A stretch of DNA of 64,000 bases from an uncultured Schlesneria sp. (GCA_903899985.1 CAIULL010000117.1:1-64000); one strand, 5' to 3'; positions 21,672 to 42,625 are shown, counted from the first letter of the stretch. Translations and numbers: made by a program. Notes: generated by a model from the letters alone, not told the origin.

Positions 21672-21800
21672 GTATCGACAGGAAAGTCCTGTCGTTGGTT
21701 TCATCGGGCCTCGGTCTTTGTACCGGAAAGGCGGCCGCAACTAGCCGGCCATCGGTTGCACCGAGTGACGGCACCGGATATCGGAACCGAAAATGTTTTG

Positions 21801-21970: not shown

Positions 21971-22033
21971 CGCAAAAAAAGGACAGACAGACGCATGATT
22001 TTCCCTGATCCATGATTGATATGGCTCGGATTG

Positions 22034-22062
22034 TTGACCTGACACGAGTACTCTACAAGAAT
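22034..22062 (+). promoter_or_regulatory. Possible promoter of the FHA kinase operon
   Basis: TTGACC at 22034-22039 and AAGAAT at 22057-22062 are separated by 17 nt, about 45 bases before the ATG at 22109. The -35 matches five of six consensus bases and the -10 four of six. This is the only reasonable pair in the leader. Confidence 0.35.
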
Positions 22063-22108
22063 ACTTTTGTGTAAAGGATCGATAGGTTCCTGGCAAAGCG
22101 TGCGCATT

Positions 22109-23860
22109 ATGGCGACATCACAGGCGATCGAATCCTTCTGGACACAACTTGCCGATAGTCGGTTGGTGCCTGAGGCACAAATCAAAATCATCTCGCGCGA
22201 ACTGGAATCGGCGGGTGTGGTCTCGGATGCGGTCGCCGCAAAAAACCTGGTCCAGAGAGGTTTGATTACTCGATATCAGGCAGATCGACTGCTCGAAGGC
22301 CGATCCCGGGGTTTCTTTTTCGATGACTATAAGCTGCTTGACCTGTTGGGGGTCGGCGGCATGGGTTGGGTTTATCGGGCCGAGAACACAAAAACGCACC
22401 AAGTCTTTGCCTTGAAAGTGCTGCTCGATCAACTGAAGCACGATCGTGGCTTGCTGGCTCGCTTCGAACAGGAGGCCCGCGCGGGACAACGGTTCAATCA
22501 TGAAAATATCGTGCGAACTTTTGGTTGCGGGGCTGCGGGCGGACTTCCGTACGTGATTATGGAATATGTCGAAGGACCAAGCCTGCTGGAGCTACTTCGG
22601 TTTCGCGATCACAGTCGACTTCCCTGGGAACAGGCCTGCGATATCGCCAGACAGGCGGCTCGCGGGTTACATCACGTGCACCTTGCGGGATTCGTTCACC
22701 GGGATATGAAGCCGCAGAATCTGTTGATCGATCGCAAAGGGTTGGTCAAGATTCTGGATTTCGGCCTGTCCATGTTGAAGGATGGCGAAGAAGGGGATGA
22801 GTTTTCGATGGCCATGATTTTTGGCCACGAATGCGTCGGAACGGCAGCTTACACCGCGCCGGAACAGGCGCTCGACAGCCTGACAGCTGACGCTCGATCT
22901 GATGTTTACAGTCTTGGGTGTACTCTGTTTGCCTCGCTGACCGGCGACACGCCGTTCCCTTATGCAAAAACATCAGAAGTTCTTAAGGCGCATCAGACTC
23001 AATTGGCGCGAAACGTCAGCGACATCGTTCCGACGATTCCGCGCGCTGTGGGTAACATCGTCGCGAAGATGCTGGCCAAAAAGCCCGAGGATCGATTTGC
23101 GACCGCCGCCGAAGTCGTTGATGCACTTTCGGTATGGTCACAAACCGCGCCGGTCGAATTTGATTTCCGTCGAATTCTGGCCGAACGGAATAAAGGAGCA
23201 CAAGAAAAGCTGAAAGAGTATCAGAAGCAGCAACGTGCCAAGGCGGGGGCGACAAATTCGACGGCACGGCTCACTTCGACCAGTTCCGTCGCCAGTAACG
23301 CATCGGGTTCACTCCCTTCCCTCAGTATTCCCTCATCAGCCTCATCAGTGGCAAGACGCGGTCCATTTGGATTCGAAAATCAGCCGGCAATTCTTGTGCG
23401 GCAACAAACAAACCCTGAAGCGCCCAAAGATTCCCAGTCCACAAACGTGCGGAAGTCGACGATGGCACTTGTGCCACTGGCCGGTGGCGAACCCATTCCG
23501 CTGCTGAAAGATCCCTTCGTCATTGGCCGTCGCGTTGATTGTGATCTGCAGGTTCAGGATGCATCCGTTTCAAGCCGACACTGTGAACTGCGGTTTGACG
23601 GGCAGCACTGGACCATTGTCGATCTGAACAGCCGAAATGGCATTCGGGTCAATGGCGAACCCGTTCAGAAGCAGCGACTTCAATCCGGGGACACAATCAT
23701 CATCGGCCCTTCGCTTCGTCTTCGCTTTGGAAATCCGCGTGGGGAAGCGAAGGCGAGAATGTCGCATCGTGTTCGCCGCGTGTTGTTGGCTATAATGGTT
23801 TTGACAGTCATTGCGACAACTGTCGGCGCGGGATATTGGTATTGGCATTTCGGCCACTAA
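22109..23860 (+). CDS. Ser/Thr protein kinase with FHA domain and C-terminal transmembrane helix
   Basis: A kinase-FHA-membrane protein of about 583 residues. An N-terminal helical module (residues 1-65; RLVPEAQIKII, RGLITRYQADRLLEG) is one often found before planctomycete kinases. The catalytic domain (about 72-345) shows LGVGGMGWVYRA, FALKVLL, HRDMKPQNLLID, ILDFGLS and GTAAYTAPEQA. A Ser- and Ala-rich linker leads to an FHA domain near 466-545, with VIGRR, SSRHCELRF and LNSRNGIRVNG, which are the phosphothreonine-binding motifs. A transmembrane helix closes the protein (VLLAIMVLTVIATTVGAGYWYW), so both domains face the cytoplasm. It could read its own or a partner's phosphorylation. The next kinase begins 19 bases downstream. 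The in-frame TTG at 22067 is a less likely start. Confidence 0.88.
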   Translation: MATSQAIESFWTQLADSRLVPEAQIKIISRELESAGVVSDAVAAKNLVQRGLITRYQADRLLEGRSRGFFFDDYKLLDLLGVGGMGWVYRAENTKTHQVFALKVLLDQLKHDRGLLARFEQEARAGQRFNHENIVRTFGCGAAGGLPYVIMEYVEGPSLLELLRFRDHSRLPWEQACDIARQAARGLHHVHLAGFVHRDMKPQNLLIDRKGLVKILDFGLSMLKDGEEGDEFSMAMIFGHECVGTAAYTAPEQALDSLTADARSDVYSLGCTLFASLTGDTPFPYAKTSEVLKAHQTQLARNVSDIVPTIPRAVGNIVAKMLAKKPEDRFATAAEVVDALSVWSQTAPVEFDFRRILAERNKGAQEKLKEYQKQQRAKAGATNSTARLTSTSSVASNASGSLPSLSIPSSASSVARRGPFGFENQPAILVRQQTNPEAPKDSQSTNVRKSTMALVPLAGGEPIPLLKDPFVIGRRVDCDLQVQDASVSSRHCELRFDGQHWTIVDLNSRNGIRVNGEPVQKQRLQSGDTIIIGPSLRLRFGNPRGEAKARMSHRVRRVLLAIMVLTVIATTVGAGYWYWHFGH

Positions 23861-23879
23861 AAGATGAAAGCAGATTTCG

Positions 23880-24998
23880 ATGTCGGTCTCGGTTGATGGG
23901 TTCCTCAAGCATCTCAGTGACAGCGGTGTGCTGTCGTCTGAAGAAATGCGGGAATTAGAGGCTCAGATTCCATCGGCAAAGCGATCAAACGATGCAATCT
24001 CGCTCGCGCGCGAACTGGTTCGACTGAAGAAACTGACCGTCTTTCAGGCGAATACGCTTTACGCGGAAAAGCCGGCTCCGTTGATCCTCGGTAACTACGT
24101 GCTGCAGGATAAGATCGGAACGGGTGGCATGGGGATGGTTTACAAAGCCCAGCATCGGCGAATGAAACGAGTCGTCGCAGTTAAGGTCCTTTCGCCAACC
24201 GCGCTCAAGGCCGCGAATGTCGTCAAACGATTTCTTCGCGAAGCGGAAGCGGCCGCAAAACTGAGTCATCCCAATATCGTGGCCGCGTTTGATGCTGATG
24301 AAATCGACGGCGTTCCGTTTCTGGCGATGGAGTTCGTCGACGGTAAAGACCTTGCCGTCCATGTCAAAGAACACGGCCCCATGTCCACAGAAAGGGGGCT
24401 CGACTGTTGCCTTCAGGCAGCCAAAGGTCTTGAGCACGCTCATCTTCAAGGGATCGTTCACCGGGACATTAAGCCTGCCAACTTGCTGCTCGATGTGAAT
24501 GGAACGGTCAAGATTCTGGACATGGGTCTGGCTCGGTTTCAAGAGACAGGAACCGGTGCAGTTCCTGTGGCAGAAGCGGGGGGGATTACTCAGGCAGGCA
24601 GTCTCGTCGGAACCGTCGACTTCATGTCACCCGAACAGGCAGTCGACTCACGACAGGCGGACCACACATCCGACATTTATAGTCTCGGTGCGACGCTCTA
24701 CTTTCTGCTGACCGGTCGACCAATGTACGAATCAGAGACATTGATGAGTCGCCTGCTCGAACATCGTGACGCTCCCCTTCCATCAATCTGCTCGTCGCGG
24801 CGCGATGTCCCGCCTCAGGTCGATACCCTCTTTCATCGGATGGTGGCCAAGAAAAAAGAAGACCGGTATCAATCGATGACCGATTTGATTCGCGACCTGG
24901 GTGACTGGCAGAATCTCTCTTCAGAAGCTTCGCCGAAATCGACTGGCAGTTCGTCTGTACCAAGTAACGTCATCAATGCGATCTTTGACGATGATTAA
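23880..24998 (+). CDS. Soluble Ser/Thr protein kinase with DMG in place of DFG
   Basis: A Hanks-type kinase of 372 residues without transmembrane segment, probably cytoplasmic. It begins with the same N-terminal helical module as its operon neighbour (LSDSGVLSSEEMREL, RLKKLTVFQANTLYA), then the catalytic domain (about 70-340): IGTGGMGMVYKA, VAVKVLSP, HRDIKPANLLLD, GTVDFMSPEQA. The metal-binding motif reads ILDMGLARF, DMG instead of DFG; the Asp that binds magnesium is kept, so activity is likely. The gene starts 19 bases after the FHA kinase stop, so the two form an operon. The FHA domain of the first protein is a plausible reader of this kinase's products. Confidence 0.88.
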   Translation: MSVSVDGFLKHLSDSGVLSSEEMRELEAQIPSAKRSNDAISLARELVRLKKLTVFQANTLYAEKPAPLILGNYVLQDKIGTGGMGMVYKAQHRRMKRVVAVKVLSPTALKAANVVKRFLREAEAAAKLSHPNIVAAFDADEIDGVPFLAMEFVDGKDLAVHVKEHGPMSTERGLDCCLQAAKGLEHAHLQGIVHRDIKPANLLLDVNGTVKILDMGLARFQETGTGAVPVAEAGGITQAGSLVGTVDFMSPEQAVDSRQADHTSDIYSLGATLYFLLTGRPMYESETLMSRLLEHRDAPLPSICSSRRDVPPQVDTLFHRMVAKKKEDRYQSMTDLIRDLGDWQNLSSEASPKSTGSSSVPSNVINAIFDDD

Positions 24999-25389: not shown

Positions 25390-26514
25390 CTATTGTTCTG
25401 ACGCACGCACGATCAGTTGCTGATCTTCTATTTTCAGTTCCGCGATCCGCCGCTTCAGATTGTCCTTTAAGTCTTCCACGTCCTGGACATCGCGTGCATA
25501 GTCCTGCATGCGACGGTAGATCTTCTGGTAGTACTCTTCATCGACAGGCTTGGCTTCCTGAAACATCATTCCGTGCGTGTAACAAAAATCGAGAAATTCT
25601 TCGATGTTTCCCCCGTCAAAATTCCGGACCTTGTAGTCGCTGGGAGCTCGGCGGAATCGGTCGGCGGTCGCACGAAGGGATTCGACATATCGATTTGCCT
25701 CGTTTAATTCGCCGTGCAATCGCATTCTTTTACCCGCGTCGAGAATGGCTGTGTTGCCTGGCATCGACCGTTTCTTTTGCAGGATTTTGGCCTGCAATAA
25801 CTCGAGATGATTGTCGAGCAACTCGGCACACTCGAGGAATTTTTCTTCGGTATTGCCGGAACTCAGTAATTCGACAAAAGCATCCCGCGATTTTTCGATG
25901 TTTCTGCGATCTTCTCCCCAATTCTGTTTCACGACTTCAGGCCATTCGAAAGTTAATGGCAATTGATTGAGCCGGACGACAACTTTCCCGCCGCCCGATG
26001 TTGCCGGGTTCAATCGATAATGCTCGACTTCCGCTTTTTCGATCCGTTCAGCAAGAGCTTGGAAGTTATTGTTTGCATTGGCTCCATTCAGCCGAGTCCT
26101 TCGAAAATGCGCAATTGGACCGAGAACCTTGAGTAGAATATTCAGACCCTCACCTCGGAAAACTGCAATCCGCAGCGCGGGGTTATTGTTCTGGGCCATG
26201 TTGTTGAAACCGATTTTGTCACGTTGTCGTTCTTCGATAAGCGCCCGACCTTGCACTCGATTTCTCTCGTCTGGAACGACACCCCTGAGTACGTCCAGCT
26301 CCGAGCCATATTGTTGCATCTCCACACGAATTCGGTCTCGCTCTTGTGAAATCCACTCCAAGCGAACCCTTTTCGCCTCTGCTGATTCCTTTTCGACAAT
26401 GATGATGTCGCCGAACAAACCTCGATATCGCGGCTGTGCCATTGCGGACATCGGTATGAAACAGCCCAAACCTAAAGTCATGAAAAAGAACAAGCGAATG
26501 CCCATCGGTTTCAT
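25390..26514 (-). CDS. Secreted coiled-coil protein of unknown function
   Basis: I do not recognise a family. The N-terminus (MKPMGIRLFFFMTLGLGCF, cleavage near AMAQP) is a signal peptide. The mature part is rich in Glu, Arg and Lys, with predicted coiled coil near residues 40-75 (EKESAEAKRVRLEWISQERD) and again at the C-terminus (DLKDNLKRRIAELKIEDQQ). The middle is a mixed helical region with NLAL-like and KVVVRLNQLP strands. It is the last gene of the minus-strand signalling island and starts 14 bases after the FHA/pseudo-protease gene, which implies co-transcription. In that setting it could be a periplasmic partner of the membrane-anchored FHA or kinase proteins, but this is inference only. 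Confidence 0.7.
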   Translation of the reverse strand: MKPMGIRLFFFMTLGLGCFIPMSAMAQPRYRGLFGDIIIVEKESAEAKRVRLEWISQERDRIRVEMQQYGSELDVLRGVVPDERNRVQGRALIEERQRDKIGFNNMAQNNNPALRIAVFRGEGLNILLKVLGPIAHFRRTRLNGANANNNFQALAERIEKAEVEHYRLNPATSGGGKVVVRLNQLPLTFEWPEVVKQNWGEDRRNIEKSRDAFVELLSSGNTEEKFLECAELLDNHLELLQAKILQKKRSMPGNTAILDAGKRMRLHGELNEANRYVESLRATADRFRRAPSDYKVRNFDGGNIEEFLDFCYTHGMMFQEAKPVDEEYYQKIYRRMQDYARDVQDVEDLKDNLKRRIAELKIEDQQLIVRASEQ

Positions 26515-26528
26515 TCCCGCTAATTGAA

Positions 26529-27833
26529 TTATCGAGCGTCAAGTGCCCGTTCCAATGTTTCTGTCCAGATGATTGAGGAATCCCTCAACGTCATCATTCC
26601 CAGGATTTTTTGGTTGTCATCAAAAATCAAACCACCTGGCTCAAGCCGAGATTCGGCGTCATTCGGCTTAAGAAAATGCTTTCCCGTTTCGAACAGGAAT
26701 TGAGCTTTTCGATCCTTGATCTGGCATTCGTCAATATCGTACTCGCAAAGCGGGAACGGGTGGTTTCCCTTAACACCCGTCGGCCGGGTCAGCTTCCCAT
26801 ACGAAACGTAGGTGAAAGCTTTTTTCAAATGCAATTGACGTTGAATCTTTTCTGAATTCACCAGCGAAATCTGTTGACGTGCGGGAAGTCCTGTCGAGTC
26901 TTTCAACTTCAATAGGGAAATCTCGGGGCAAGCATTCGAAAAACGGACCTCGGCAACTTCGAATGGCACCCCTTGAATAACGCACCCCTGACGCGGAGTT
27001 CCTGCATTTCGTGATTCTTCGATGACCTCATTAATCGCGTCGCCGACTTCACGTGAAGTCACCGCCGTGCGGTCATCCCATAGCCAGCCAACACCCAGGA
27101 CATGCGGGCGAGGACGGTCTTCACTTTTCATGTCACCGATCCCGACCAGGACCAGAAACTCTGCGGGTTCGGGTGCCTGAACGGCTGGTACAGGCAATGT
27201 CACAGTCGGTTCAGGCTGGGCCGAAATCGTTGATTGGGATTGGATATCAACCGGAGCATTCTGTTCGACAGCGACGGACTTCGAACGTGGTGGCCAGAAC
27301 ATGAAACCTGCAGCCGCAAGCATCAGAAACGAAATGGCACCAATCGCCACCATCGCAAACAGTTTGCTTCGCGGCTGATTCTCCACCGTCATCGGTGGTT
27401 TCAGAACAGGCTGAACGCCAGAGCCGGCAGGATTCGATCTGGTTTTATTCCCGGACAGATCCGGAATAAACGGGATATGCGGAGGCGATACAAATGTGGG
27501 TCCCGTCGTCGGCACCGGTTTCAAAGGAACGGGAGCGCCCGATTCCTGCGATGCAGGTTCAAACACGAGTTGTGGACCAGACTCGGTCAGATGAATCACG
27601 TCGCCCGGATTGAGCCAGGCAAACTGAGTCGGTCGGCCATTTCCAACGCGGATTGGCCCGCCATCTCGTGACTCAACAATCCACCGACCGTTCACGTGGC
27701 GAAGTACTGCGTGCAGCGGAGCCAGTCGAGCATCGTTCGGCAGGGCGACTTGATTGTCCGGATCTCGACCGATTCCGATCGCATCGGTCTCAAAACTGAG
27801 CGTTTGACGTTCAACGATGAGTTTAACGGGCAT
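26529..27833 (-). CDS. FHA domain protein with degenerate trypsin-like domain
   Basis: A single-pass membrane protein of 434 residues. Residues 1-95 form an FHA domain (IGIGRDPDNQVALP, then LHAVLRHVNGRWIVESRDGG), which normally binds phosphothreonine. A Pro-rich linker and a transmembrane helix near 168-190 (LFAMVAIGAISFLMLAAAGF) follow. The outer part (about 230-434) resembles an HtrA/trypsin fold: GVGWLWDDRTAVTSREV stands where active enzymes have G-x-G-F...VTNAHVV, CPEISLLKL where the catalytic Asp (D-x-A-x-L-x-x) would be, and EPGGLIFDDNQKILGM where GNSGGPLxxxxGxxxGI would be. All three catalytic residues appear replaced, so it is probably a pseudo-protease used for binding. It lies 76 bases after the TPR/zinc kinase and 14 before the coiled-coil gene. 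Confidence 0.75.
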   Translation of the reverse strand: MPVKLIVERQTLSFETDAIGIGRDPDNQVALPNDARLAPLHAVLRHVNGRWIVESRDGGPIRVGNGRPTQFAWLNPGDVIHLTESGPQLVFEPASQESGAPVPLKPVPTTGPTFVSPPHIPFIPDLSGNKTRSNPAGSGVQPVLKPPMTVENQPRSKLFAMVAIGAISFLMLAAAGFMFWPPRSKSVAVEQNAPVDIQSQSTISAQPEPTVTLPVPAVQAPEPAEFLVLVGIGDMKSEDRPRPHVLGVGWLWDDRTAVTSREVGDAINEVIEESRNAGTPRQGCVIQGVPFEVAEVRFSNACPEISLLKLKDSTGLPARQQISLVNSEKIQRQLHLKKAFTYVSYGKLTRPTGVKGNHPFPLCEYDIDECQIKDRKAQFLFETGKHFLKPNDAESRLEPGGLIFDDNQKILGMMTLRDSSIIWTETLERALDAR

Positions 27834-27909
27834 CGGCGGTTTCCGAAAAGTTCGTGCGACTCATGTAGATGCGAAATCGAGCCGCGTTCCCGACAGGCAA
27901 AATCGAAAA

Positions 27910-30333
27910 TTAACGCCGAAGGTTTGGATCGCGCCCGTCGACGCAGCCGCCGCAGTCGATTCTGCCGAAACCACCGCACATTCCGCAAGGAACCAGATTC
28001 GATGTCGGTACGGTCGACCCAACGATGACTCCAAACCCGGCATCCCGTTTTTCACTGGCGACCCCGGTCTGCAAATGCTTGCCTCGACCACCGCATTTTT
28101 TGCAAATGAGTTTTGCGCAGCCATTACAAAGGCTGCACGAGATGTCTTCCAAACTACCTGTGGGACAAAACACACGGCATTCGGCGATTGTTTTTTGAGA
28201 CTGGTCAAGAGGCATGAACATCCAGCCCGACCGAGGTCGGAAGAGGGCCGGTTCCGTATTCAAACTGGTGATTCTCTTCAGCTCGTCCGCCTTGATTTCG
28301 AAGTTTTTGGTCAGACTGAGAAATCGACCAATGTTTTGATTGACTTCAAATGGTCTCGGATTCTGTTTGGCGGCAATCGTGAGATAATTTCGGACGGGTG
28401 CGAATTTTTTCAATTTGATTTCGACCAGCGCCAGATTATTTGAGGCGGCCACATGTCCGGGCGATCGTTCAACGACGCGTCGGAAATGGGTCTCGGAATT
28501 TTCAAGAATCTCTTTAGCGTCTTTTGGCTCTTTGGCACCTACGCCCAGATAAAGCAGGCCCAGATAAAAATCAGCGCGGACCTCTTTCGGTGCGACATTA
28601 CTGGCTCGCTTCAGTGGCGTAATCGCTTGCTTCCGCTGATTGGCCTGCACCAGCGAGATCCCTTTAGCGATCAAGTCATCGATATTCGCTGACGTGTCTT
28701 CTTTGGAATTCAGATCGGTAGCCGCCACATCGTCATTGGACATTGCGGGGTCGTCCCCGACAGCGTCGGTCCGTGGTGCCGGGTCGTCGGAGGCGGCCAT
28801 TTCAGCGTCGGACGATGGTTTCGCCTCGACACTTTCCGAGTTCGATTCTGATCCCGCCGCTACGGCATCTTTCGATTCCTGCTGTGGTTCCGTTTGACCC
28901 GCTGTCGAAGCGATTTCTATGTTTGGCTGTTGCGGTAATTCTTCGCTACGGCCATTCTCTGCCACATTCTTTGCTGCGGGTAATGACGCCAACGTGGCAA
29001 TCGAATCGAGTCCAGGTTTCGCCTCAGCCAACTCAGCAGTGGAATTGCTTGTCGGTAATGACTTCTTTGACGTGCCTGGAATGAAAGAGAGGGCAGCGAT
29101 CGCGATTAATGCAACGGCAGAACCCCCGATCAGGGACCAGCGAGCGGCTGATGGGAGGGAGTTCCAATGGTCCTGGATCGACGGCGACACTGGGGAAGCC
29201 GCTTTGGAGACCGGTTTTTTGCTCGTGGCTGACTTCGCTGGCTTTTTGGAAACAGGAAATCGACGGGCTGGCAATTGAGCAGGAATCGGAGGGGGTTCGA
29301 AACTCAAATGGAGATCGGTTTCTGACTCATCCTCGGCGAATGAAAGGTCTTCGAACGGATCTGCATTGAGATTGATCCCTTCCAGCGCCGTAATCGCTTC
29401 GGCACAGTTCTCAAAGCGGTCCTCCTTTCGCTTCGCAATCATTTTTTGGCAGACTGCCGCCAGGCTTGATGAGAGTTCGGGGTTGAGACTTAACGGAGAC
29501 GGGGCATCGAGGACGCATTTCTTCCCCATGACCTCAACGGCACCGCCGGTGAAGGGCCATTCACCAGTCAGCATTTCGAACAACATCACACCAACGGCAT
29601 AAAGGTCACTGCGCTGATCAATATCCTCCGCTTTTCCCGTCGCCTGTTCGGGTGACATATAAGCGGCAGTACCGACAACCATTCCCTGCGTCAGACCTGC
29701 GTCAGAAGAACCGATCGCACGGCGAGCCAGGCCGAAATCCATGATGACAGGCTCGTTCTTCTTGTTCAGCATCACGTTCTCGGGCTTTAAATCCCGATGA
29801 ATCACGTCCTTATCATGAGCGGCTTCCAAGGCTCGAAGTATCTCCACGACAAGTCGAACCGCTTCCGTTGGCTCACGCCGCCGCCCCAGCCGTGTCAAAT
29901 ACTTCTTAAGGTCCTCACCTTCGACGTATTGTAATGCGATGAAGCGGATGCCATCGATTTCGCCGGTGTCATACACTTTGCAGATCTGAGGATGGTCCAC
30001 CTTGGCGGCCGATTTGGCTTCGATCTCCATCCGTTTGAGCAGCTTCGCCGAACCCGATGCTGAAACGCGAGCCACCTTTAGCGCCACAGGCCGATCGAGT
30101 TCCGTATCGTGAGCCAGATAGACCGCTCCCATTTGCCCCCGACCCAGTTCCCGTTCGACCCGATACCGTCCAAACTTCTTGGGGATCAAAGAGCCGGACG
30201 TCGCCATGACAGGGACAGAGTCCGCTGCACGATTTGTGTCACTCGATTTGGAAACCGGAACACTCATCGGTTTGATTTCGCGCGACGAATCTGCGGCAGA
30301 AGCTTCAGGTCGGCGTTTTGGTGATTCAGCCAT
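27910..30333 (-). CDS. Ser/Thr protein kinase with TPR and DnaJ-like zinc ribbon
   Basis: A membrane kinase of 807 residues. The catalytic domain (about 55-320) carries ELGRGQMGAVYLA, VALKVARV, HRDLKPENVMLN, IMDFGLARR and GTAAYMSPEQA. A transmembrane helix lies near 396-420. An acidic, Ser/Ala/Glu-rich linker follows, then TPR-like helices (about 560-690; KAITPLKRASNVAP, EVRADFYLGLLYLG). The C-terminus has Cys pairs typical of a DnaJ-type zinc ribbon: CNGC, CKKCGGRGK, CGMCGGFG, CGGC. Kinase, TPR and zinc ribbon in one chain is unusual. It is one of three tandem kinases with very similar catalytic domains. It is 377 bases downstream of the previous one and probably heads a sub-operon with the FHA and coiled-coil genes. 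AGGG upstream of ATG 30333 supports this start. Confidence 0.88.
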   Translation of the reverse strand: MAESPKRRPEASAADSSREIKPMSVPVSKSSDTNRAADSVPVMATSGSLIPKKFGRYRVERELGRGQMGAVYLAHDTELDRPVALKVARVSASGSAKLLKRMEIEAKSAAKVDHPQICKVYDTGEIDGIRFIALQYVEGEDLKKYLTRLGRRREPTEAVRLVVEILRALEAAHDKDVIHRDLKPENVMLNKKNEPVIMDFGLARRAIGSSDAGLTQGMVVGTAAYMSPEQATGKAEDIDQRSDLYAVGVMLFEMLTGEWPFTGGAVEVMGKKCVLDAPSPLSLNPELSSSLAAVCQKMIAKRKEDRFENCAEAITALEGINLNADPFEDLSFAEDESETDLHLSFEPPPIPAQLPARRFPVSKKPAKSATSKKPVSKAASPVSPSIQDHWNSLPSAARWSLIGGSAVALIAIAALSFIPGTSKKSLPTSNSTAELAEAKPGLDSIATLASLPAAKNVAENGRSEELPQQPNIEIASTAGQTEPQQESKDAVAAGSESNSESVEAKPSSDAEMAASDDPAPRTDAVGDDPAMSNDDVAATDLNSKEDTSANIDDLIAKGISLVQANQRKQAITPLKRASNVAPKEVRADFYLGLLYLGVGAKEPKDAKEILENSETHFRRVVERSPGHVAASNNLALVEIKLKKFAPVRNYLTIAAKQNPRPFEVNQNIGRFLSLTKNFEIKADELKRITSLNTEPALFRPRSGWMFMPLDQSQKTIAECRVFCPTGSLEDISCSLCNGCAKLICKKCGGRGKHLQTGVASEKRDAGFGVIVGSTVPTSNLVPCGMCGGFGRIDCGGCVDGRDPNLRR

Positions 30334-30710
30334 AATCGTGCCCTGTGAGTTCCGATTCTGAAGAGTTTCTTCGAAACCTTAACCGCATTATTTTTCCGCG
30401 GTTTGCCAACAACTACTGTTACGAAAAAAGCGATTTGACTCGTTTGTTAGCATTTCTGAGCATTGGACTTGGTCGAATTGTACACAGCTTGATTTCCTTT
30501 TGTCACGTACGCAGGTGTCCCTCTCATTCAGTAAGGAGGATCGCCGAAATGCGAAGACCTTGGAAACGACGAGAGAATCAATTCATCAGCAGTCAGATTA
30601 CATTTCGGCTCACATCTCAGTGGAGCGACGGGGCAACTTTATTGGAGTTGCAAAGCGATGCACGAAGTCACTGTCGCCGATTGAGTGGTCTCCCACTGCG
30701 ATGAATCTGT
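30334..30710. other. Gap inside the kinase cluster, no gene seen
   Basis: These 377 bases separate the second and third duplicated kinase genes. Small plus-strand open frames run through but have no domain or ribosome-binding site and run against the local gene direction. A separate promoter for the TPR/zinc kinase, FHA and coiled-coil genes could lie here; no clear box pair was found. Confidence 0.4.
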
Positions 30711-33128
30711 TTATTTATTGGTTACGGATCTCGCGATCCTGAAACCTGTAATATCCGTCTTGGAACGGCGATTGAATCCGGAACGATGAGCCGATCTGGC
30801 TTGTTGCGGATCGCTGAACCAGGAACCGCCTCGAACGACTCGACTGTCCCAATTGCTCGTATAGATCGGGTTTTCGGTCGTTCCCGAACGCGAGGCATAC
30901 GTGGACCACTCGTAACTATCTTCGCACCACTCCGAGACGTTTCCGTGCATGTCAAACAAGCCAAAGGGGTTCTTTGGATAGGAACCGACCTTCGTTGTTC
31001 GTTGAAGTTGTGGACCTGGCTTGGCACCGCCGTACGAAAATCGTCCGTCCACATTGGCCTGCTCGCCATTCAATGAATTTCCAAATTCGAACGTCGTAGT
31101 CGTACCGGCACGACAGGCATATTCCCATTCCGCCTCCGTCGGTAATCGATATCCAGTGCCACCGGAAATCGTCACGGTTGCAGAATCAACGACACCATTT
31201 TTTCGTATGATGTCTGACCATTTGTAATAGGCAGGACGACCTTCACTTTCACTGAGCCTGTTACAAAACTCAATCGCCTCGTACCAGGATACACGTTCTA
31301 CCGGGAGGCGGCTGGTATCCAGGTCAACGACCTTGCTTTTGCCACCTCCATCCGTCGAAAAGAAGCTTGGAACCCAACCCGTGATCTTCTGGTACTCCCC
31401 CTGCGTGACTTCATAGACTCCCAGATAAAACGGTTGTGTGATACGAACGCGATGTCGCGGGCATTCATCGCCACTGTGACCGACCTCTGAATCAGGTGCC
31501 CCCATCTCGAATTCTCCAGCGGGAATCAGTGCCAGCTCCATCCCCGTCGACTTGGAAACGATGCGTGGCAAATATCCGATTCGAGGTGACTCGTCCGACG
31601 TTTTCCTTTTCGAAGAATGATCAGTGACAACGACCTCCTGGCCGTCAACCAGTGAGACCTTAATGCGTCGCCTCTCACCTGCTGTGAGCTTCAGTTCTGT
31701 CGTCGCCGACTCGACAGGAACGGCGTTTTGAAGGACCTCCAGCTTGTGCTTAGTCGAGGTCGAGACTCGGATCGGCTGACTGTCATTTTCCTCCGTGATC
31801 GAAGCCCCTCTGAATCGGACCGAAAGTGTCGGGTCGTCGATCACGACCTGGACAATACCGCTCGGTGACAATAACCACCAAATGAATAGAGGCAGGGCCA
31901 CGAGAAGTGAGGCCGCACCGGCGATCAGCCAACGAAACGAAACTGGAGTCTCTTCAAACCATTTTGCAAAGCCCGCAGTCGGACCATGGGGAGGGGTGAC
32001 CGGCTGCTTTTTCTTTTTGACGCTCGCACGATTTTCTGCAACAGACGCCAGGGGAAGCGACGCCAGCTCGATTGCTGCAAAAGGGCTGGGTTGGGGTTTC
32101 TCGTTCATTTCACGAGCTACGGATGATTGAAGCGATCGGGTCGGGTCCAGGTCTTCCAGTGCTTCAACGACTTCAGCACACGTGATGTACCGGTCACCCT
32201 TCTGTTTCGCGATCATTTTATGACAGACCGCTGCCAACTGTGGGTTTAGATTTGGAATGAGGGTCAGGGGCGATGGGGGTTCTTGAACGACCTTCTTTCC
32301 CATCACCTCAATGGCACCACCGGTAAACGGCCACTCGCCCGTCAGCATCTCGTACAGAATAACTCCCACCGCATAAATGTCGCTGCGGTGATCGATCCCC
32401 TCCGCTTTGCCGGTTGCTTGCTCGGGAGACATATACGCAGCGGTCCCGACGATCATCCCTTGAGTCAGACCTGCATCTGACGACGCGATCGTCTTGCGAG
32501 CCAGTCCGAAATCCATGATCACGGGCTGGTTCTTCTTATTCAGCATGATGTTTTCAGGCTTCAGATCCCGATGGATCACGCCCTGATCGTGCGCGGCCTC
32601 TAATGCACGCAGAATTTGCAGAACAAGTCGAACAGCCTCTTCTGGCTCCCGTTTCCTTCCAGTTCGTTTCATGAATTGTTTGAGGTCTTCCCCTTCGATG
32701 TATTGAAGGGCGATAAAACGGATACCATCGATCTCACCTGCATCGTAAACCTTGCAGATCTGAGGATGGTCCACCTTCGCTGCAGACTTGGCTTCGATCT
32801 CCATCCTCTTGATGAGCTTGGCCGAGCCCGAAGCGGACGACCTCGCCACCTTCAGGGCAACAAGTCGATCCAATTCACCATCGTAGGCAAGGTAAACTGC
32901 CCCCATTTGCCCCCGGCCAAGTTCTTTCCGAATCTCATAACGGCCAAACTGCATCGGCAATGTTGCGAATGGACCAACGGGTGCCGGGACCGAATCGGCC
33001 GCGCGCGCCGTTTCGCCCGACGGCGTACCGGTGGGACGAGATGGCTTGGCCTGGTGGGAAGCACCTGCTTGCAAACGAGCCGCATCGGCTTGTGATTGAT
33101 CCGCACGACGTTTTGGGGGTTCGGCCAT
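30711..33128 (-). CDS. Ser/Thr protein kinase fused to a formylglycine-generating-enzyme domain
   Basis: A membrane kinase of 805 residues. The kinase domain (about 64-330) shows ELGRGQMGAVYLA, VALKVARS, HRDLKPENIMLN, IMDFGLARK and GTAAYMSPEQATG. A transmembrane helix lies near 393-417 (IAGAASLLVALPLFIWWLL). The outer part has a small beta region, then a complete SUMF1/formylglycine-generating-enzyme fold (about 522-800): IPAGEFEMGAPDSE, FYLGVYEVTQGEY, RLPTEAEWEYACRAGT, DMHGNVSEWCED, VVRGGSWF. Such domains either oxidise a sulfatase Cys to formylglycine or serve as ligand-binding folds; in kinases the latter is more usual. The catalytic Cys pair of true enzymes is not clearly present. The catalytic domain is nearly the same as in the flanking kinases. 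Confidence 0.9.
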   Translation of the reverse strand: MAEPPKRRADQSQADAARLQAGASHQAKPSRPTGTPSGETARAADSVPAPVGPFATLPMQFGRYEIRKELGRGQMGAVYLAYDGELDRLVALKVARSSASGSAKLIKRMEIEAKSAAKVDHPQICKVYDAGEIDGIRFIALQYIEGEDLKQFMKRTGRKREPEEAVRLVLQILRALEAAHDQGVIHRDLKPENIMLNKKNQPVIMDFGLARKTIASSDAGLTQGMIVGTAAYMSPEQATGKAEGIDHRSDIYAVGVILYEMLTGEWPFTGGAIEVMGKKVVQEPPSPLTLIPNLNPQLAAVCHKMIAKQKGDRYITCAEVVEALEDLDPTRSLQSSVAREMNEKPQPSPFAAIELASLPLASVAENRASVKKKKQPVTPPHGPTAGFAKWFEETPVSFRWLIAGAASLLVALPLFIWWLLSPSGIVQVVIDDPTLSVRFRGASITEENDSQPIRVSTSTKHKLEVLQNAVPVESATTELKLTAGERRRIKVSLVDGQEVVVTDHSSKRKTSDESPRIGYLPRIVSKSTGMELALIPAGEFEMGAPDSEVGHSGDECPRHRVRITQPFYLGVYEVTQGEYQKITGWVPSFFSTDGGGKSKVVDLDTSRLPVERVSWYEAIEFCNRLSESEGRPAYYKWSDIIRKNGVVDSATVTISGGTGYRLPTEAEWEYACRAGTTTTFEFGNSLNGEQANVDGRFSYGGAKPGPQLQRTTKVGSYPKNPFGLFDMHGNVSEWCEDSYEWSTYASRSGTTENPIYTSNWDSRVVRGGSWFSDPQQARSAHRSGFNRRSKTDITGFRIARSVTNK

Positions 33129-33196
33129 GATTCTCGTGTCTAATTTCTTGATGAACTTGAATCACCTTTTGATGTCGATCGTGCATCAAAAACAAA

Positions 33197-34912
33197 TCAC
33201 TGTCGCGTGCCGGTCACGATGTGTGTTCTCCCTCCAGGATCATTCCATTCACCCCGAAACGTTGTCAGATCTTCGTTGAAATAAAAGGGAATACCCGTCC
33301 AGCAGTCGTCTTGCGAGCGGTCATAATGAATTCGCATTTCCCTGGGACCAACGACCCAGTATTTCCAATTCCAGCGATGAAACATTCCGTTTTCGTGGAA
33401 CTGGCAGATGTCGCCCGGAGGAAAAAGATGGTCGTGATAGTGCCAATTGTGTGTTCGCAGGATCATTTCCAGTCGCGATATTTCCTCCTGGATCGTTGGC
33501 CCAGGGGTTGGTTCCTGGTTTACTGGGGCAACATCGATTGCAGGTGGCTGTTCGTTGTCGGCGTTTTGGGTAACGACCGGCTTGCCGTCAATCGAAACTT
33601 TACCGTCTGTCCGCGAACTGACACCATATTTCTCAGGTAGACACAGAACCACGGCGAGGCAAACGAGACAAGCACCTGCACCGCCGAGAATCGTCCAGCG
33701 CACCGATGGCATTTGTGCAGACCACCACGTCACCAGCGGTCCAAAACTGCGCGACGGCGACTTCTGCGGGAGATTCTTCTTTCTTTCACTCGAATTTATC
33801 GCCTCCACATTCGGCGAAGATTTTCGTATCTTCGATTTCATCGCACCGGGTGATTCGCGGCGAAAATCGAACTTGGAGGATTCGCCATCCCTTGGAATAA
33901 CGGGTGTAGCGGCCTCGGGTAAAAGTGGGGGCTGAGCATTGGCGTTCAGATCGATCGCTTCCAGAGCATCAACGACATCAGCACACGTGACGTACCGATC
34001 CCCCCTTTGTTTCGCGATCATCTTGTGACAGACTGTTGCCAATTTTGGACTCAACGCGGGATTGAGAGTCAGTGGCGAAGAAGGCTCCAATACACACTTC
34101 TTTCCCATCACTTCAATCGCGCCGCCGGTAAACGGCCACTCGCCCGTCAGCATTTCAAACAGCATCACACCGACTGCATAAATATCGCTGCGGTGATCGA
34201 TCTCCTCAGCCCTTCCGGTGGCTTGTTCGGGAGACATATAGGCCGCCGTTCCGACGATCATTCCCTGAGTCAGGCCCGCATCCGAAGAGGCGATCGTCTT
34301 GCGAGCCAACCCGAAATCCATGATCACCGGCTGATTCTTCTTGTTCAGCATTACGTTTTCAGGCTTCAGATCCCGATGGATCACACCCTGTTCGTGAGCC
34401 GCCTCCAAGGCGCGAAGAATCTGTAGGACCAGTCGCACCGCCTCTTCGGGTTCGCGCTTCCGCCCGAGGCGTTTCATGTATTGTTTGAGGTCTTCTCCAT
34501 CGATGTACTGTAAAGCGATGAACCGAATCCCGTCGATTTCCCCCGCGTCATAAACTTTGCAGATCAGCGGATGATCGATCTTTGCGGCGGCTCTGGCTTC
34601 AATTTCCATCCGCTTCAAAATCTTGGCTGAACCAGATGCTGAAACCCGAGCGACTTTGAGCGCGACCAACCGATCGAGCTCTACATCTTTTGCGAGATAG
34701 ACAGATCCCATCTGCCCCCGGCCAAGTTCTTTCCGAACCTCATACCGGCCGAACCGCATTGGCAAGTGTGCAAACGGGCCATCGGGTGCTGGAACCGAAT
34801 CCGCCGCACGCGCGGTTTCACCTGAAGGTGAACTTGCGGAACGAATTGGCTTGGCGATTCGAGAAGTGTCTGCGGGTGCGACATTTTTTGGTGGTTTCGA
34901 TGAATCGGCCAT
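33197..34912 (-). CDS. Ser/Thr protein kinase with Trp-rich C-terminal domain
   Basis: A membrane kinase of about 571 residues and the first of the three tandem duplicates. The catalytic domain (about 50-315) has ELGRGQMGSVYLA, VALKVARV, HRDLKPENVMLN, IMDFGLARK and GTAAYMSPEQATG. A basic linker leads to a transmembrane helix near 399-425. The outer C-terminal 90 residues are aromatic-rich (NWHYHDHLFPPGD, HRWNWKYWVVG, FRGEWNDPGG) and look like one small beta-barrel, possibly lipocalin-like. I know of no named family for it. ATG 34912 is chosen over GTG 34927 because it aligns with the MAE start of the two other copies. The next kinase starts 68 bases downstream. Confidence 0.87.
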   Translation of the reverse strand: MADSSKPPKNVAPADTSRIAKPIRSASSPSGETARAADSVPAPDGPFAHLPMRFGRYEVRKELGRGQMGSVYLAKDVELDRLVALKVARVSASGSAKILKRMEIEARAAAKIDHPLICKVYDAGEIDGIRFIALQYIDGEDLKQYMKRLGRKREPEEAVRLVLQILRALEAAHEQGVIHRDLKPENVMLNKKNQPVIMDFGLARKTIASSDAGLTQGMIVGTAAYMSPEQATGRAEEIDHRSDIYAVGVMLFEMLTGEWPFTGGAIEVMGKKCVLEPSSPLTLNPALSPKLATVCHKMIAKQRGDRYVTCADVVDALEAIDLNANAQPPLLPEAATPVIPRDGESSKFDFRRESPGAMKSKIRKSSPNVEAINSSERKKNLPQKSPSRSFGPLVTWWSAQMPSVRWTILGGAGACLVCLAVVLCLPEKYGVSSRTDGKVSIDGKPVVTQNADNEQPPAIDVAPVNQEPTPGPTIQEEISRLEMILRTHNWHYHDHLFPPGDICQFHENGMFHRWNWKYWVVGPREMRIHYDRSQDDCWTGIPFYFNEDLTTFRGEWNDPGGRTHIVTGTRQ

Positions 34913-35053
34913 TCGTCGCGCACCCACTTCATGCCATCAACTGACGAGTTAACGTTTGGAAACTGAAATACCGTCTTTCGATCTCCACGGTAAACCTCAA
35001 TGATCTTATATCGAGCAAATTTCGCGTTGGCCAACTGTTACTGTCAAACCGGG

Positions 35054-35824
35054 CTATTTCTTACCAACGCTCGCAAAGTCTTTGGCTGGTTTTCCGTTGA
35101 CGATCGCCGTAAAGACCAGGCGACGACCGATCACGAAGCCGCGGAATTCCATCGTGCGAGGATTCCCATGCAGCATTTTTGTGGTCTTTAAAACGATCGC
35201 GTTTCCTTCCATCATTCCTTCATAAACCCAGCCCGACTTCCCACCCGTGAAAACATCCTGCCACAAATGACCTTCGAACGAGTTGTTCTGGACATTAAAA
35301 ACATGCACATGGAAGTCGACAGTGGTCCCGTTTTCGAAAGTTCGATTGCCATGCCATTCCGTATTTTTTCCAAACTCATACCGGCTCGGTAAATCCGCCT
35401 GCCATGCGTCCTTAGCCGTTGATATTCGGTTGAATTCCGGTTGATTGCCAATCGCTTTTGACAAAGCCTCGTCAAACGTCTTCTGGACTTTCAGCCGCTT
35501 GTCGTGGAGTTCGTTCAGGTACGAGACCGTGGCGGGGAGCATGTCGTCCGATTCCGGAAGTACGTTTGATTTTGTGAAGCGTTCTTTTTCCGCTTGAATC
35601 TGCATGAAGTGCCGATTTCGAGTTTCCGGCGGGAAGGCTTTATTGTTTCGAATCTGAGCAGCGATTCTGTCGAAGGCTTTGCCCATCTTCGTGTCGGCAT
35701 CCTTTTTATCCTTCTGGTAAGCCTTCAAGTCTTTCTCAAATGACTTGCCACTCTCAGTGGAAGCATTAACTGCTGAAATCAAAAGCCAGAACGCCAATTG
35801 AACAACGAAAAGCCGGTATTTCAT
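35054..35824 (-). CDS. Secreted protein with helical N-part and beta C-part, unknown function
   Basis: A 256-residue protein with a clear signal peptide (MKYRLFVVQLAFWLLISAVNA). The mature N-terminal half is Lys- and Asp-rich and helical, probably a coiled coil (SFEKDLKAYQKDKKDADTK). The C-terminal 110 residues are beta-rich, with WHGNRTFENGTTVDFHV and FRGFVIGRRLVF, in the style of the beta domain on the adjacent kinase but not clearly homologous. A strong AAGGA Shine-Dalgarno stands 6 nt before the ATG. It is the first gene of the minus-strand cluster, 141 bases before the Trp-rich kinase, and may encode a periplasmic ligand or partner of that kinase. Confidence 0.7.
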   Translation of the reverse strand: MKYRLFVVQLAFWLLISAVNASTESGKSFEKDLKAYQKDKKDADTKMGKAFDRIAAQIRNNKAFPPETRNRHFMQIQAEKERFTKSNVLPESDDMLPATVSYLNELHDKRLKVQKTFDEALSKAIGNQPEFNRISTAKDAWQADLPSRYEFGKNTEWHGNRTFENGTTVDFHVHVFNVQNNSFEGHLWQDVFTGGKSGWVYEGMMEGNAIVLKTTKMLHGNPRTMEFRGFVIGRRLVFTAIVNGKPAKDFASVGKK

Positions 35825-36366
35825 GAGCTATCCTTCCTCAACAACTGATTATCCGGTGAACTGGATTTTCAGTTGCACCTCGAGACAAGTCTGTTTCCTA
35901 ACCATTACCCGCCAGACGATTCAGATTGGGCTACGAAGGTAAATGCGGAAGGGTGCCGATTTCCCGACAGAAAAAATCCAGTTTTCAGAAGAATTACTGG
36001 CTCGGGCCAACGGACACCGAAACAAACGCGGCAAATTGCGTGTGCCTGCCGCAAAAGAAGAAAACGCGATGAAACGTTAGCCCGACGCGCAAGCGAGGGA
36101 TCTTCTCTTCGTTTCAACGGAAATAAGATCCCTCGCTTACGCGTGATCCAAGTTCGTGAAAAGCAACTTTCTCATGAGCACGTTCCAATCGTTAAGAAAG
36201 TCGCAAAGTAAACGGTTTGGACACTGCGCCCGTTGGGAAGCCAGCTGATTTCCACCCACGGCATTCAGCCGTTATTCCGTCAATTGGACCGCACTCGCGT
36301 GAGATTGTATATTCAAAGGAACGACAGTGAATCTTCTAAATTGCGATTTTTCGCCAGGACGGTGAG
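35825..36366. other. Divergent region between the signalling island and the sigma factor gene
   Basis: About 540 bases with no gene. It must hold the promoters for both the leftward secreted-protein gene and the rightward ECF sigma gene, and contains a long inverted repeat at 36085-36144. No -35/-10 pair could be assigned with confidence. Confidence 0.45.
36085..36144. repeat. Long inverted repeat, 20-bp arms
   Basis: The left arm 36085-36104 and right arm 36125-36144 are inverse copies with a single mismatch, around a 20-nt spacer. The arms contain AAGCGAGGGATC and GATCCCTCGCTT. No coding sequence and no T-tract follow. It looks like a dispersed intergenic palindrome of the kind common in planctomycete genomes. 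Confidence 0.7.
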
Positions 36367-36960
36367 ATGAACCAACCTCAATTGCCGCTTGACGATGCAT
36401 CTGGCTCCATCACCATTCTTTACCAGCAGTGGCGTCAGGGCGATTCGGATTCATTGAACCAGTTGATATCACGATTCTGGCCGCGACTTCTCGCGCTCGC
36501 ACATTCGACTCTGCGTGGCCGCGTTCAACGTGTGGCCGATGCCGAGGATGCACTTCAGAGTGCGATGATCAGTTTCTGGGGTCGAGTCGATAATGGCGGG
36601 TTCGAGCATGAGATGGACCGCGAGGACTTATGGAATATCCTCGGGCTGTTTACCGTCCGAAAAGCGATCAAACTGCAAGAACGTGAAAGAGCGAAAAAGC
36701 GTGGGGGCGGTAAAGTTGTGAGCGGAGTTCCATTGGAAAACGCACCTCAGATCGGATCGGAAGCGGGGTTGGATCTGGTCTGTGCCGAATTACTGGAAAT
36801 GCTCGATCCGGATTTACGTGCCTTTGCTCTGCTTCGGCTGATGGGACATAAAAACCGTGAGATTGCCGATCAGTTTCAATGTACCGAACGAAAGGTCGAG
36901 CGCAAGTTGCAGTTAGTTCGTGCCGTTTGGGAACAGGAAGTCAAACTTTGGGAATCGTAA
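36367..36960 (+). CDS. ECF-type RNA polymerase sigma factor
   Basis: A 197-residue sigma factor of the ECF type. Region 2 is in ITILYQQWRQGDSDSLNQL and DAEDALQSAMISFW (the core-binding and -10-recognising part). Region 4 is near residues 140-190, with DLRAFALLRLMGHKNREIAD as the helix-turn-helix for -35 recognition. There is no anti-sigma gene beside it. A kinase gene with FHA domain follows 168 bases downstream, the arrangement typical of planctomycete sigma factors thought to be controlled by phosphorylation. GGTGAG just before the ATG may serve as ribosome-binding site. It is divergent from the kinase island and could drive it. Confidence 0.85.
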   Translation: MNQPQLPLDDASGSITILYQQWRQGDSDSLNQLISRFWPRLLALAHSTLRGRVQRVADAEDALQSAMISFWGRVDNGGFEHEMDREDLWNILGLFTVRKAIKLQERERAKKRGGGKVVSGVPLENAPQIGSEAGLDLVCAELLEMLDPDLRAFALLRLMGHKNREIADQFQCTERKVERKLQLVRAVWEQEVKLWES

Positions 36961-37128
36961 GAAATCTTTGTCGGGAACGGATACCGGATCCGCATTTACT
37001 AGAGATTCCAGACAATGTTTGGCAGACGACAGATTCAGAAATGATCCAACAGGTCACCTGCGATACCGTTTTTTTGACGACTTTTCAATCTTACGCCGTC
37101 CCCTTGTTGATCATGAGTTCGAACGACG

Positions 37129-38736
37129 ATGAATGATCTTAATCCTGACCTTTCTGTTGATCTGCTGAGGCGAATCGATGCCGCCTGTGATCGTTTCGAA
37201 GAATCATGGCGTGGTGGTTTAGTTCCGAAAATCGAAGATTATCTGGCACTGTTCAGGTCCGACGAAAAATCTTCTCTTTTGGATGCGCTGCAAAGCCTTC
37301 AGCAAGAACTGACGCTTCGAAACCCGATCAATTCGGAAACAGGTCCGAAGACGCTTGAGTTTATCGCCGTGGAAAGCTCAGACGATCCACCGGCTCCTCA
37401 GACGCGCGAGTTTTTGGAGGAATCGCAGAATGAAAAGATCAATGACAACAAAACAGCTCGCGTGACATTTCGCGTGATCGCCGGCCCTCATGAGGGACTC
37501 GGTTTTACATTTCACGAACATAACACGTTATTCGCGGGCCGGCTTCCGAGAGCTCAGCTTCGACTGGAAAAAGACCTCCACTTCTCTCGTCATCATTTCC
37601 GACTGGAAGTGAATCCACCAACCTGTTTCCTGATGGACCTCAACAGTCGCAATGGGACATTTGTAAACGGTGAACGGGTCAAAGATCGGTTTCTTCTCGA
37701 CGGCGACATTGTCTCCGGCGGCCGAACGAAGATGGTTGTGTCGATCTTCGATCCGCAGGAAGTGAAATCAAAACCTGCGACGACCTCGCCCAAGGCTGCT
37801 GAAGTACGGCAAGGTCCCGCTCCGATTCCCACGAAACGGCCGCCGTCAATTCCGCCAAAGTCTGAAGCCGCTCGTAAGATTCCTGAAGAGCATGCGGGCG
37901 ATTCACCTGTCTCCATTCCTGGATACGAAATTCATGAACAGATCGGGGCCGGCGACCTCGGAGTCGTTTATCGTGCTCGAAAGCTCTCTTCGAACGAATT
38001 GTGTGCGCTCAAGGTTCTTTCACCCGCGGCACACACCGATGAAGCTTCGATTCAAGCATTTCTCAGGCAAGCGTCGGTCCTCAATCAACTGCAACATCCT
38101 CATATCATCCGCCTGCTTGAGCTGGGAGCAGCCGGTCAAAATATCTTTCTCGCCACAGAATACGTTGGTTCGTACAACTGGGACGATTTCGTTTCGCGTT
38201 ATACTCCTGAAAAGCGGGTTCGAATCGCCTGTGGCGTTATGTCTCAGATCCTCAGCGCTCTCGGTTATGCACATGACCGATCGCTCGTGCATCGCGACGT
38301 GAAACCAGGGAACATACTGATCACCAGGAAAGACGAAAAACTGGTGGCGAAGCTGGCCGATTTCGGGATTGCAAAACAATATACGACGGCGGGAATGAGT
38401 CAGGTGACTCGGGACGGAGATGTTCTGGGATCGCTCCCATTCATGTCACCCGACCAGTTTCTGAATTCGCGTGATGCTCGCCCGACCTGTGATCTTTACT
38501 CGGCCGGGGCAACGCTTTACTGGATGTTGACGGGTTACGAACCGATTCCACTGGATGGACATCCATGCAAATTCCTTGCAATTCTGGAAGCTCCACCAAC
38601 CCCGATTCAGCAGCATAACCCTTCCGTCCCAGACGCCTTGGCCCGGATCGTGCATTGCGCGCTCGAGAAAACACCCGAAAAACGATTTTCATCGGCGGCG
38701 GAGATGAGACATCAAATCAAAGCGTTTTTGAAATGA
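37129..38736 (+). CDS. Soluble Ser/Thr protein kinase with N-terminal FHA domain
   Basis: A 535-residue kinase without a membrane helix. An N-terminal helical module (1-70; LLRRIDAACDRFEESWRGG, a start seen on many planctomycete kinases) is followed by an FHA domain near 110-205 (LFAGRLPRAQLRL, FSRHHFRL, LNSRNGTFVNGERV), which contains the Arg, Ser-Arg-His and Asn residues for phosphothreonine binding. A Pro-rich linker leads to the kinase domain at about 265-530: IGAGDLGVVYRA, CALKVLSP, HRDVKPGNILIT, LADFGIAKQ and GSLPFMSPDQF. It shares the strand with the ECF sigma gene 168 bases upstream. A likely role is phosphorylating the sigma factor or its partners, an inference from the pairing. Confidence 0.88.
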   Translation: MNDLNPDLSVDLLRRIDAACDRFEESWRGGLVPKIEDYLALFRSDEKSSLLDALQSLQQELTLRNPINSETGPKTLEFIAVESSDDPPAPQTREFLEESQNEKINDNKTARVTFRVIAGPHEGLGFTFHEHNTLFAGRLPRAQLRLEKDLHFSRHHFRLEVNPPTCFLMDLNSRNGTFVNGERVKDRFLLDGDIVSGGRTKMVVSIFDPQEVKSKPATTSPKAAEVRQGPAPIPTKRPPSIPPKSEAARKIPEEHAGDSPVSIPGYEIHEQIGAGDLGVVYRARKLSSNELCALKVLSPAAHTDEASIQAFLRQASVLNQLQHPHIIRLLELGAAGQNIFLATEYVGSYNWDDFVSRYTPEKRVRIACGVMSQILSALGYAHDRSLVHRDVKPGNILITRKDEKLVAKLADFGIAKQYTTAGMSQVTRDGDVLGSLPFMSPDQFLNSRDARPTCDLYSAGATLYWMLTGYEPIPLDGHPCKFLAILEAPPTPIQQHNPSVPDALARIVHCALEKTPEKRFSSAAEMRHQIKAFLK

Positions 38737-42611: not shown

Positions 42612-42625
42612 GAGACCTCCTGAAT

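Follow-up and report, generated by a model that had tools for sequence, protein, structure and literature searches.

Computation shows that eight genes in the 64 kb window (the whole stretch of DNA that was analysed, contig C117 of the 8.0 Mb genome G000) belong to a conserved module, and that one ECF-type promoter motif precedes the units of this module as well as dispersed kinases of the same family. To judge by its named relatives, the genome is that of a lake planctomycete close to uncultured Schlesneria (Planctomycetota). We consider the module to be, probably, a circuit with positive feedback in which several sensor kinases feed one sigma factor. As the same motif precedes the island operons and, in relatives, dispersed kinases of the same family, the sigma factor (SIG) most likely controls the expression of its sensors, its relay kinase and its adaptor.

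Layout of the island

The first-pass annotation had described a minus-strand run of a secreted protein, three kinases, an FHA/pseudo-protease and a coiled-coil protein, with an ECF sigma factor and an FHA-kinase divergent from it. Pfam matches and a check against the window sequence, in which all eight genes are open reading frames, confirm this arrangement:

CC, 25390..26514, minus strand: predicted exported helical protein, constant partner of FHApp (CC profile, neighbourhood maps)
FHApp, 26529..27833, minus strand: degenerate FHA domain, membrane helix (159-177) and S1/HtrA-fold pseudo-protease lacking the triad (Pfam, alignment, AlphaFold2)
Predicted SIG promoter before FHApp-CC, 27865..27895, minus strand: TGTCGGGAACGCGGCTCGATTTCGCATCTAC, 35.0 bits
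KA, 27910..30333, minus strand: membrane kinase, C-terminal part TPR-like and Cys-rich, with CxxC pairs read off the sequence (PF00069 162.6 bits, weak TPR)
KB, 30711..33128, minus strand: membrane kinase, FGE-sulfatase-type ectodomain (PF00069 167.2 bits, PF03781 176.5 bits)
KC, 33197..34912, minus strand: membrane kinase, small C-terminal ectodomain with no recognised family (PF00069 164.9 bits, family alignment); it probably starts at ATG 34912 rather than GTG 34927
SEC, 35054..35824, minus strand: putatively exported protein with no recognised family, also present in G006 (49%)
Predicted SIG promoter before SEC-KC-KB, 35939..35969, minus strand: TGTCGGGAAATCGGCACCCTTCCGCATTTAC, 35.8 bits
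Housekeeping-like SIG promoter, 36284..36313, plus strand: TTGGAC-N18-TATATT, conserved in G000, G001, G004 and G005a by upstream comparison
SIG, 36367..36960, plus strand: ECF sigma factor, DAED at residues 58-61 (PF07638, Sigma70_ECF, 75.9 bits)
Predicted SIG promoter before FHAkin, 36969..36999, plus strand: TGTCGGGAACGGATACCGGATCCGCATTTAC, 33.6 bits
FHAkin, 37129..38736, plus strand: soluble kinase with N-terminal domain, canonical FHA and Pkinase (PF00069 150.7 bits, PF00498 48.7 bits)

The clustering of kinases is not a matter of chance, since 8 of the genome's 72 Pkinase matches sit in this one window. Three more plus-strand kinases, one with an FHA domain and one with HEAT repeats, lie just beyond the island at 20091-24998 and still adjoin CC in G004 and G005:C32; they have no detected TGTCGG site upstream, and for this reason we leave them out of the system. 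Elsewhere in the window, a large plus-strand protein (13451-17851) combines DUF7133 with a 3-keto-disaccharide hydrolase-type domain, a domain that is also the ectodomain of some island-family kinases. Two minus-strand reading frames (41673-43684) resemble, as read from their sequence, an agmatinase-type enzyme and an MtnA-type isomerase; as listed they overlap by ~120 bp, and the start of 41673-42749 is probably placed too early.

The kinases and the sigma factor

All four island kinases match the Pkinase profile (150.7-167.2 bits) and carry the Lys, HRD and DFG residues of Hanks-type Ser/Thr kinases, as read in the sequence. KA, KB and KC, at 72-82% over the N-terminal 330 residues, are close paralogues that have the cytoplasmic half in common and swapped ectodomains. 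Such swapping runs through their family, which has 24 matches at E<1e-100 in 7 genomes; the ectodomains of kinases in the wider module include FGE, C-type lectin, 3-keto-disaccharide-hydrolase-type, laminin G-like, LRR and WD40 domains. The C-terminal part of KC, like SEC, has no Pfam match. Such membrane-spanning kinases fit the outside sensor side that had been proposed for the island. Directly before the kinase domain KA, KB and KC carry the segment '[ED]T...DSxP...FGRY', and its Thr and DSxP are kept in 23/23 readable kinases of the family, with A for E/D before the Thr in one member and E or A for V in others.

FHAkin has a different N-terminal domain ('IDxxCDxFE..W..GxxPxIEDYL'), absent from KA, KB and KC and found also on the sigma-adjacent kinases of ordinary pairs (L060, L061, L091, L110 and L114). 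Its FHA domain keeps the canonical GR / SRxH / NGT residues (AGRLPR...FSRHH...NSRNGT), including the Arg of GR, the Ser of SRxH and the Asn of NG that mark phosphothreonine-binding FHA domains, and to judge by these residues FHAkin looks to be the only FHA protein of the island resembling an intact reader.

SIG scores well above the Pfam Sigma70_ECF cut-off of 21.1 bits, and at 44.5 bits it falls under the cut-off of 126 for the TIGR02999 subfamily profile. In the alignment DAED is kept in all close SIG orthologues, and distant relatives carry acidic variants of it. ECF43 sigma factors lack DAED (PMC13147305, PMC8999054, PMC8103513), the criterion for the group being its replacement in sigma2.2 by uncharged residues together with a phosphorylatable Thr (PMC13147305, PMC8103513). 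The ECF43 (EcfP/PknT) switch was thus ruled out for SIG, which, with DAED intact, has no need of a charge switch in sigma2.2. A direct phospho-switch of the EcfP/PknT kind, in which SIG itself is the substrate of a membrane kinase and the FHA proteins have accessory roles, has a precedent in sigma-kinase gene pairs (PMC13147305, PMC8999054), and Ser65 and Ser69, directly past DAED, are invariant in the SIG alignment. However, the acidic motif of SIG and its relatives makes a charge switch superfluous, though another site in SIG such as the linker may be phosphorylated, and the constant neighbour of SIG is the soluble FHAkin rather than a membrane kinase, so that we regard this alternative as rather unlikely.

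A conserved TATAAT-like element upstream of KA is of housekeeping type in look, as is the element before SIG, and together they suggest basal production of SIG with control exerted once it has been synthesised. The consensus scan flagged a TGGACC/TATATT variant of the SIG element, and such matches are not commoner than in shuffles. The same holds for sigma70-type sites and terminators across the region, and we therefore do not draw operon ends from them.

FHApp, CC and SEC

The FHA domain of FHApp is matched weakly by Pfam (24.7 bits, cut-off 20.7). In this lineage its SRxH reads APLH, so that Ser and Arg are gone and most phosphothreonine-binding residues have been lost; Arg is additionally lost in G010 and G015. 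Of the inside, phosphothreonine-reading side claimed by the first-pass annotation, the part of FHAkin is supported by its residues and that of FHApp is not. The AlphaFold2 model (mean pLDDT 69; 80-90 in the well-predicted domains, low in the linkers) consists of the FHA domain, a membrane helix and an S1/HtrA chymotrypsin fold at residues ~220-434, and this fold reaches a Z of about 14-15 to AlgW, DegS, RsgI9 and protein Z. Protein Z is a pseudo-protease. Trypsin_2 is above its cut-off in an FHApp homologue (L063). The triad is changed at His, Asp and Ser in FHApp, and the His and Ser positions are changed throughout the 20-sequence alignment, in which no His-Asp-Ser catalytic triad was found; fold and residues together bear out the pseudo-protease reading. 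The N-termini of CC and SEC are signal-peptide-like when read by eye, and CC itself is predicted to be exported. CC yields a weak, helical model (pLDDT 62) that resembles no solved structure at E<=0.001.

With such an architecture FHApp could be an anti-sigma-like anchor whose cytoplasmic part keeps SIG at the membrane and lets it go, in the manner of RsgI or DegS, when a ligand binds to the pseudo-protease with CC or when FHApp is phosphorylated. Negative regulators are often under the control of their own sigma factor, and FHApp, which spans the membrane and has an ectodomain fold like those of the RsgI9 S1C domain and DegS, is often encoded near SIG and under the same motif. The S1C domain of RsgI9 is reported to bind polysaccharide (PMC12203970). 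Yet Pfam finds neither RsgI_N nor any other anti-sigma domain in FHApp, where an FHA domain stands in its place, the SIG loci of G001 and G008 have no FHApp, and FHApp-CC also occurs where SIG is not nearby (see below), all of which makes an anchor unlikely.

Conservation of gene order

The claim that the island is one regulatory circuit invited a comparison of related genomes, and SIG, FHAkin, FHApp, CC and membrane kinases do stay together in relatives. SIG is followed by FHAkin in 9/9 loci from this genome and seven relatives (G000, G001, G004, G005 with two copies, G006, G008, G010 and G015), which gives each the adjacent Ser/Thr kinase gene that defines planctomycete STK-associated ECF factors. 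SIG orthologues are 73-98% identical in eight of these loci and the G008 homologue is 60% identical. FHApp is divergent from SIG, and the number of membrane kinases that separate the two ranges from 0 to 4: 3 here and in G015, 4 in G004, 1 in G005:C269, and none in G006 (SEC only) or G010 (a kinase follows CC). One G005 copy is spread over two contigs (KA-FHApp-CC-K3-K2-K1 and KC-SIG-FHAkin), and G001 has only SIG-FHAkin at this place. A decayed second copy of the island in G010:C1 (L101 6317-7474) retains fragments of CC and SIG beside a 1450-aa kinase.

Across the 170 family genomes the CC profile matches in 20, from 13 of 58 genera. At the 23 mapped CC places FHApp adjoins CC, the exceptions being the remnant in G010:C1 and G075, where CC is partial; most of the places have a kinase close by, and a SIG-family gene lies in the mapped neighbourhood at 15/23 places, a count that includes G071 and G097, whose sigma genes are distant homologues. 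The order varies, being SIG, kinase, FHA protein, FHApp, CC and FHAkin-like in one direction throughout in L089 and L093, and FHApp<CC<HSP70< / >SIG>kinase in L090-L092. FHApp-CC is without a nearby SIG in G006:C70, G026, G080 and G184, where short contigs restrict the view. An HSP70 gene (PF00012, DnaK-like) stands beside FHApp or CC in several genera (L090-L092, L094, L064, L063 and L065), and in these FHApp/CC loci it is split in G006:C70 and short in G026.

That the island is merely an ordinary STK-ECF pair (SIG and FHAkin) beside unrelated, recently amplified kinases at a duplication hotspot would agree with the close paralogy of KA, KB and KC, with a kinase number that runs from 0 to 4 across genomes and with the three further kinases that adjoin. 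Against this stand the recurrence of FHApp-CC with sigma factor and kinase in distant genera and the single motif that precedes SEC-KC-KB, FHAkin, FHApp and unlinked family kinases, and we hold a hotspot without a system to be quite improbable.

A promoter motif shared by the island and dispersed kinases

The proposed feedback rests on this motif, an ECF-type consensus (TGTCGGgaa-N10-TTyCGCATnTAC) first seen upstream of the divergent operon as the block TGTCGG-N16-CGCATTTA, which is kept even in the diverged G006. Its upstream distance is about 145 bp for SEC, 160 bp for FHAkin and 62 bp for FHApp. The window contains three matches to TGTCGG-N16-CGCAT where 0.05 are expected, a number that 0/100 shuffles reached, and all three occurrences of TGTCGG-N16-CGNATNTA in the 8.0 Mb genome are in the island (reversed control, 0). 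Both genomic occurrences of a strict form with a spacing of 15-17 bases are likewise inside it. The island sites score 33.6-35.8 bits against 11.4 for the next site in the window, using a matrix that was built from the sites themselves and is circular for them. Independent support comes from the GAA, TT and TAC positions, which were left free in the search and are nonetheless conserved at linked sites. Among weaker matches in G000, those on C30, C238 and C187 were rejected, being inside genes or facing away from a start and lacking the flanking consensus, which C39 and C248 lack as well.

Sites occupy equivalent places in G004, G005, G006, G010, G015 and G141 (before CC, 30.9 bits); those in G008 (25.1 bits, at the start of FHAkin) and G107 (21.6 bits, before CC) are weaker. 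In more distant sigma clades the motif was not seen at this strength and a related TGTCGG-N16 layout is present. Layouts of this kind (TGTCGG-N16-CGGAAT, CGGAT or GGGAAT; L090 12624 (+) and 11823 (-), L114 10605 (+)) lie between sigma factor and kinase and, in L090, also before the HSP70 operon. It may be general that kinase genes are under their own sigma factor.

Some KA/KB/KC-family kinases are encoded outside the island, and the motif is found upstream of their aligned starts in G001 (C21, 268 bp), G006 (C38, 176 bp; C109, 180 bp) and G010 (C88, 62 bp; C14, 65 bp; C42, 113 bp, heading a three-kinase run). By manual count, 21/25 matches to TGTCGG-N16-CGNATNTA in six genomes precede genes of the system, and members that have moved apart mostly keep the same promoter motif, which, with the conserved gene order, makes the island very probably one circuit. 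In a blind scan of 170 genomes, 7/7 with close SIG orthologues had sites (24 in all) vs 14/163 of the others, a co-occurrence with a nominal Fisher p of 1.6e-7 that is overstated, the species being related. Among the others, full-consensus sites in G013:C1291 and G120:C211 precede KA/KB/KC-family kinases. Among the matches to TGTCGG-N16-CGNATNTA that do not precede genes of the system, one in G006:C79 (L167 8791-9881) lies 68 bp upstream of a Peptidase_A4 family protein, which may be a SIG output in a relative, and one in G005 precedes a protein with a weak G8 match. In this genome the motif led to no output gene outside the system.

From the co-occurrence and from the site directly after SIG we infer that SIG reads the motif. 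That the shared promoters respond to a different sigma factor or regulator is very doubtful: binding of SIG to the motif is a prediction from sequence and a few genomes have a single match and no close SIG, but the motif is present in every genome with a close SIG orthologue, a site lies 9 bp past the SIG stop codon here, with the equivalent position occupied in G001 and G004, and G120, with its blind match before a family kinase, has a good SIG homologue. It is then the promoter motif, and not gene proximity, that would tie dispersed kinases to one sigma factor, which offers a way to place orphan kinases.

The proposed circuit

Taking SIG as the probable reader of its own sensors' promoters, we infer as follows how kinases control SIG, how the FHA relay works, what kind of ligands are sensed and what FHApp-CC does. 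KA, KB and KC would sense extracytoplasmic ligands through their swapped ectodomains, with the FHApp pseudo-protease, CC and SEC as putative ligand-binding or scaffold parts outside the cytoplasm. Activated kinases would autophosphorylate, possibly at the Thr conserved in '[ED]T...DSxP' next to the kinase domain. FHAkin could dock on the phosphorylated segment with its intact FHA domain, whereupon it would become active and, with the N-terminal domain typical of sigma-adjacent kinases, would activate SIG. Basal SIG from the housekeeping-like promoter would then transcribe the TGTCGG promoters, yielding more sensors and relay kinases. It counts against a one-regulon view that KA seems to be under a housekeeping-type promoter, so that the motif is not before every part. 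The lone SIG-FHAkin of G001, the lower strength of the motif in distant sigma clades and the failure to find an outside output gene here also weigh against the circuit.

A more specific version is put forward tentatively, namely a two-tier Ser/Thr cascade in which sensors with swappable ectodomains, some of them dispersed, would signal through the FHA domain of FHAkin to a DAED-bearing SIG, as a self-amplifying array with a non-ECF43 mode of activation. On this two-tier reading, the detectable SIG regulon in this genome consists of sensors, relay kinase and FHA/pseudo-protease adaptor. Planctomycetes have many kinases and kinase-linked ECF sigma factors, and those that keep DAED may be controlled by a mechanism other than that of EcfP (PMC8999054). 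With a bounded set of parts, a predicted motif, ectodomain swaps that are readable and a candidate Thr for docking, the island makes the control of such sigma factors by kinases directly testable.

Comparison with known systems

The first-pass annotation knew of no named system of this composition. This agrees with the open literature searched, where we found no description of the FHApp-CC pair, the multi-kinase input, the FHA relay kinase or the motif-linked dispersed sensors, and no pseudoprotease combined with an FHA domain, with the qualification that the core of sigma factor and kinase is of an already known kind, the STK-associated ECF groups (PMC8999054). ECF59, ECF61, ECF62 and ECF217 resemble the island in having a kinase-adjacent ECF gene, no anti-sigma gene and DAED or a similar acidic motif (PMC8999054), whereas the island joins one sigma factor to a soluble FHA-kinase, several membrane kinases, FHApp, CC and a shared motif. 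ECF43 (EcfP/PknT in Vibrio, EcfK/PknS in Xanthomonas) likewise pairs a sigma factor with a kinase, a membrane kinase with a variable ectodomain, but gains by phosphorylation the charge that SIG already has in DAED, and the constant partner of SIG is soluble. FHApp recalls RsgI9 (Clostridium thermocellum) and further RsgI anti-sigma factors as a membrane protein of a sigma pathway, with a protease-like ectodomain (S1C in RsgI9), and differs from RsgI9 in its cytoplasmic FHA domain, in the lack of a detected anti-sigma domain and in a sigma factor of another type. Finally, GarA/OdhI, EmbR and Rv1747 share with the island the FHA fold and the logic of reading kinase phosphorylation; in the island, in contrast, the intact FHA domain is part of a second kinase, encoded next to an ECF sigma factor, and its counterpart in FHApp is degenerate and membrane-bound.
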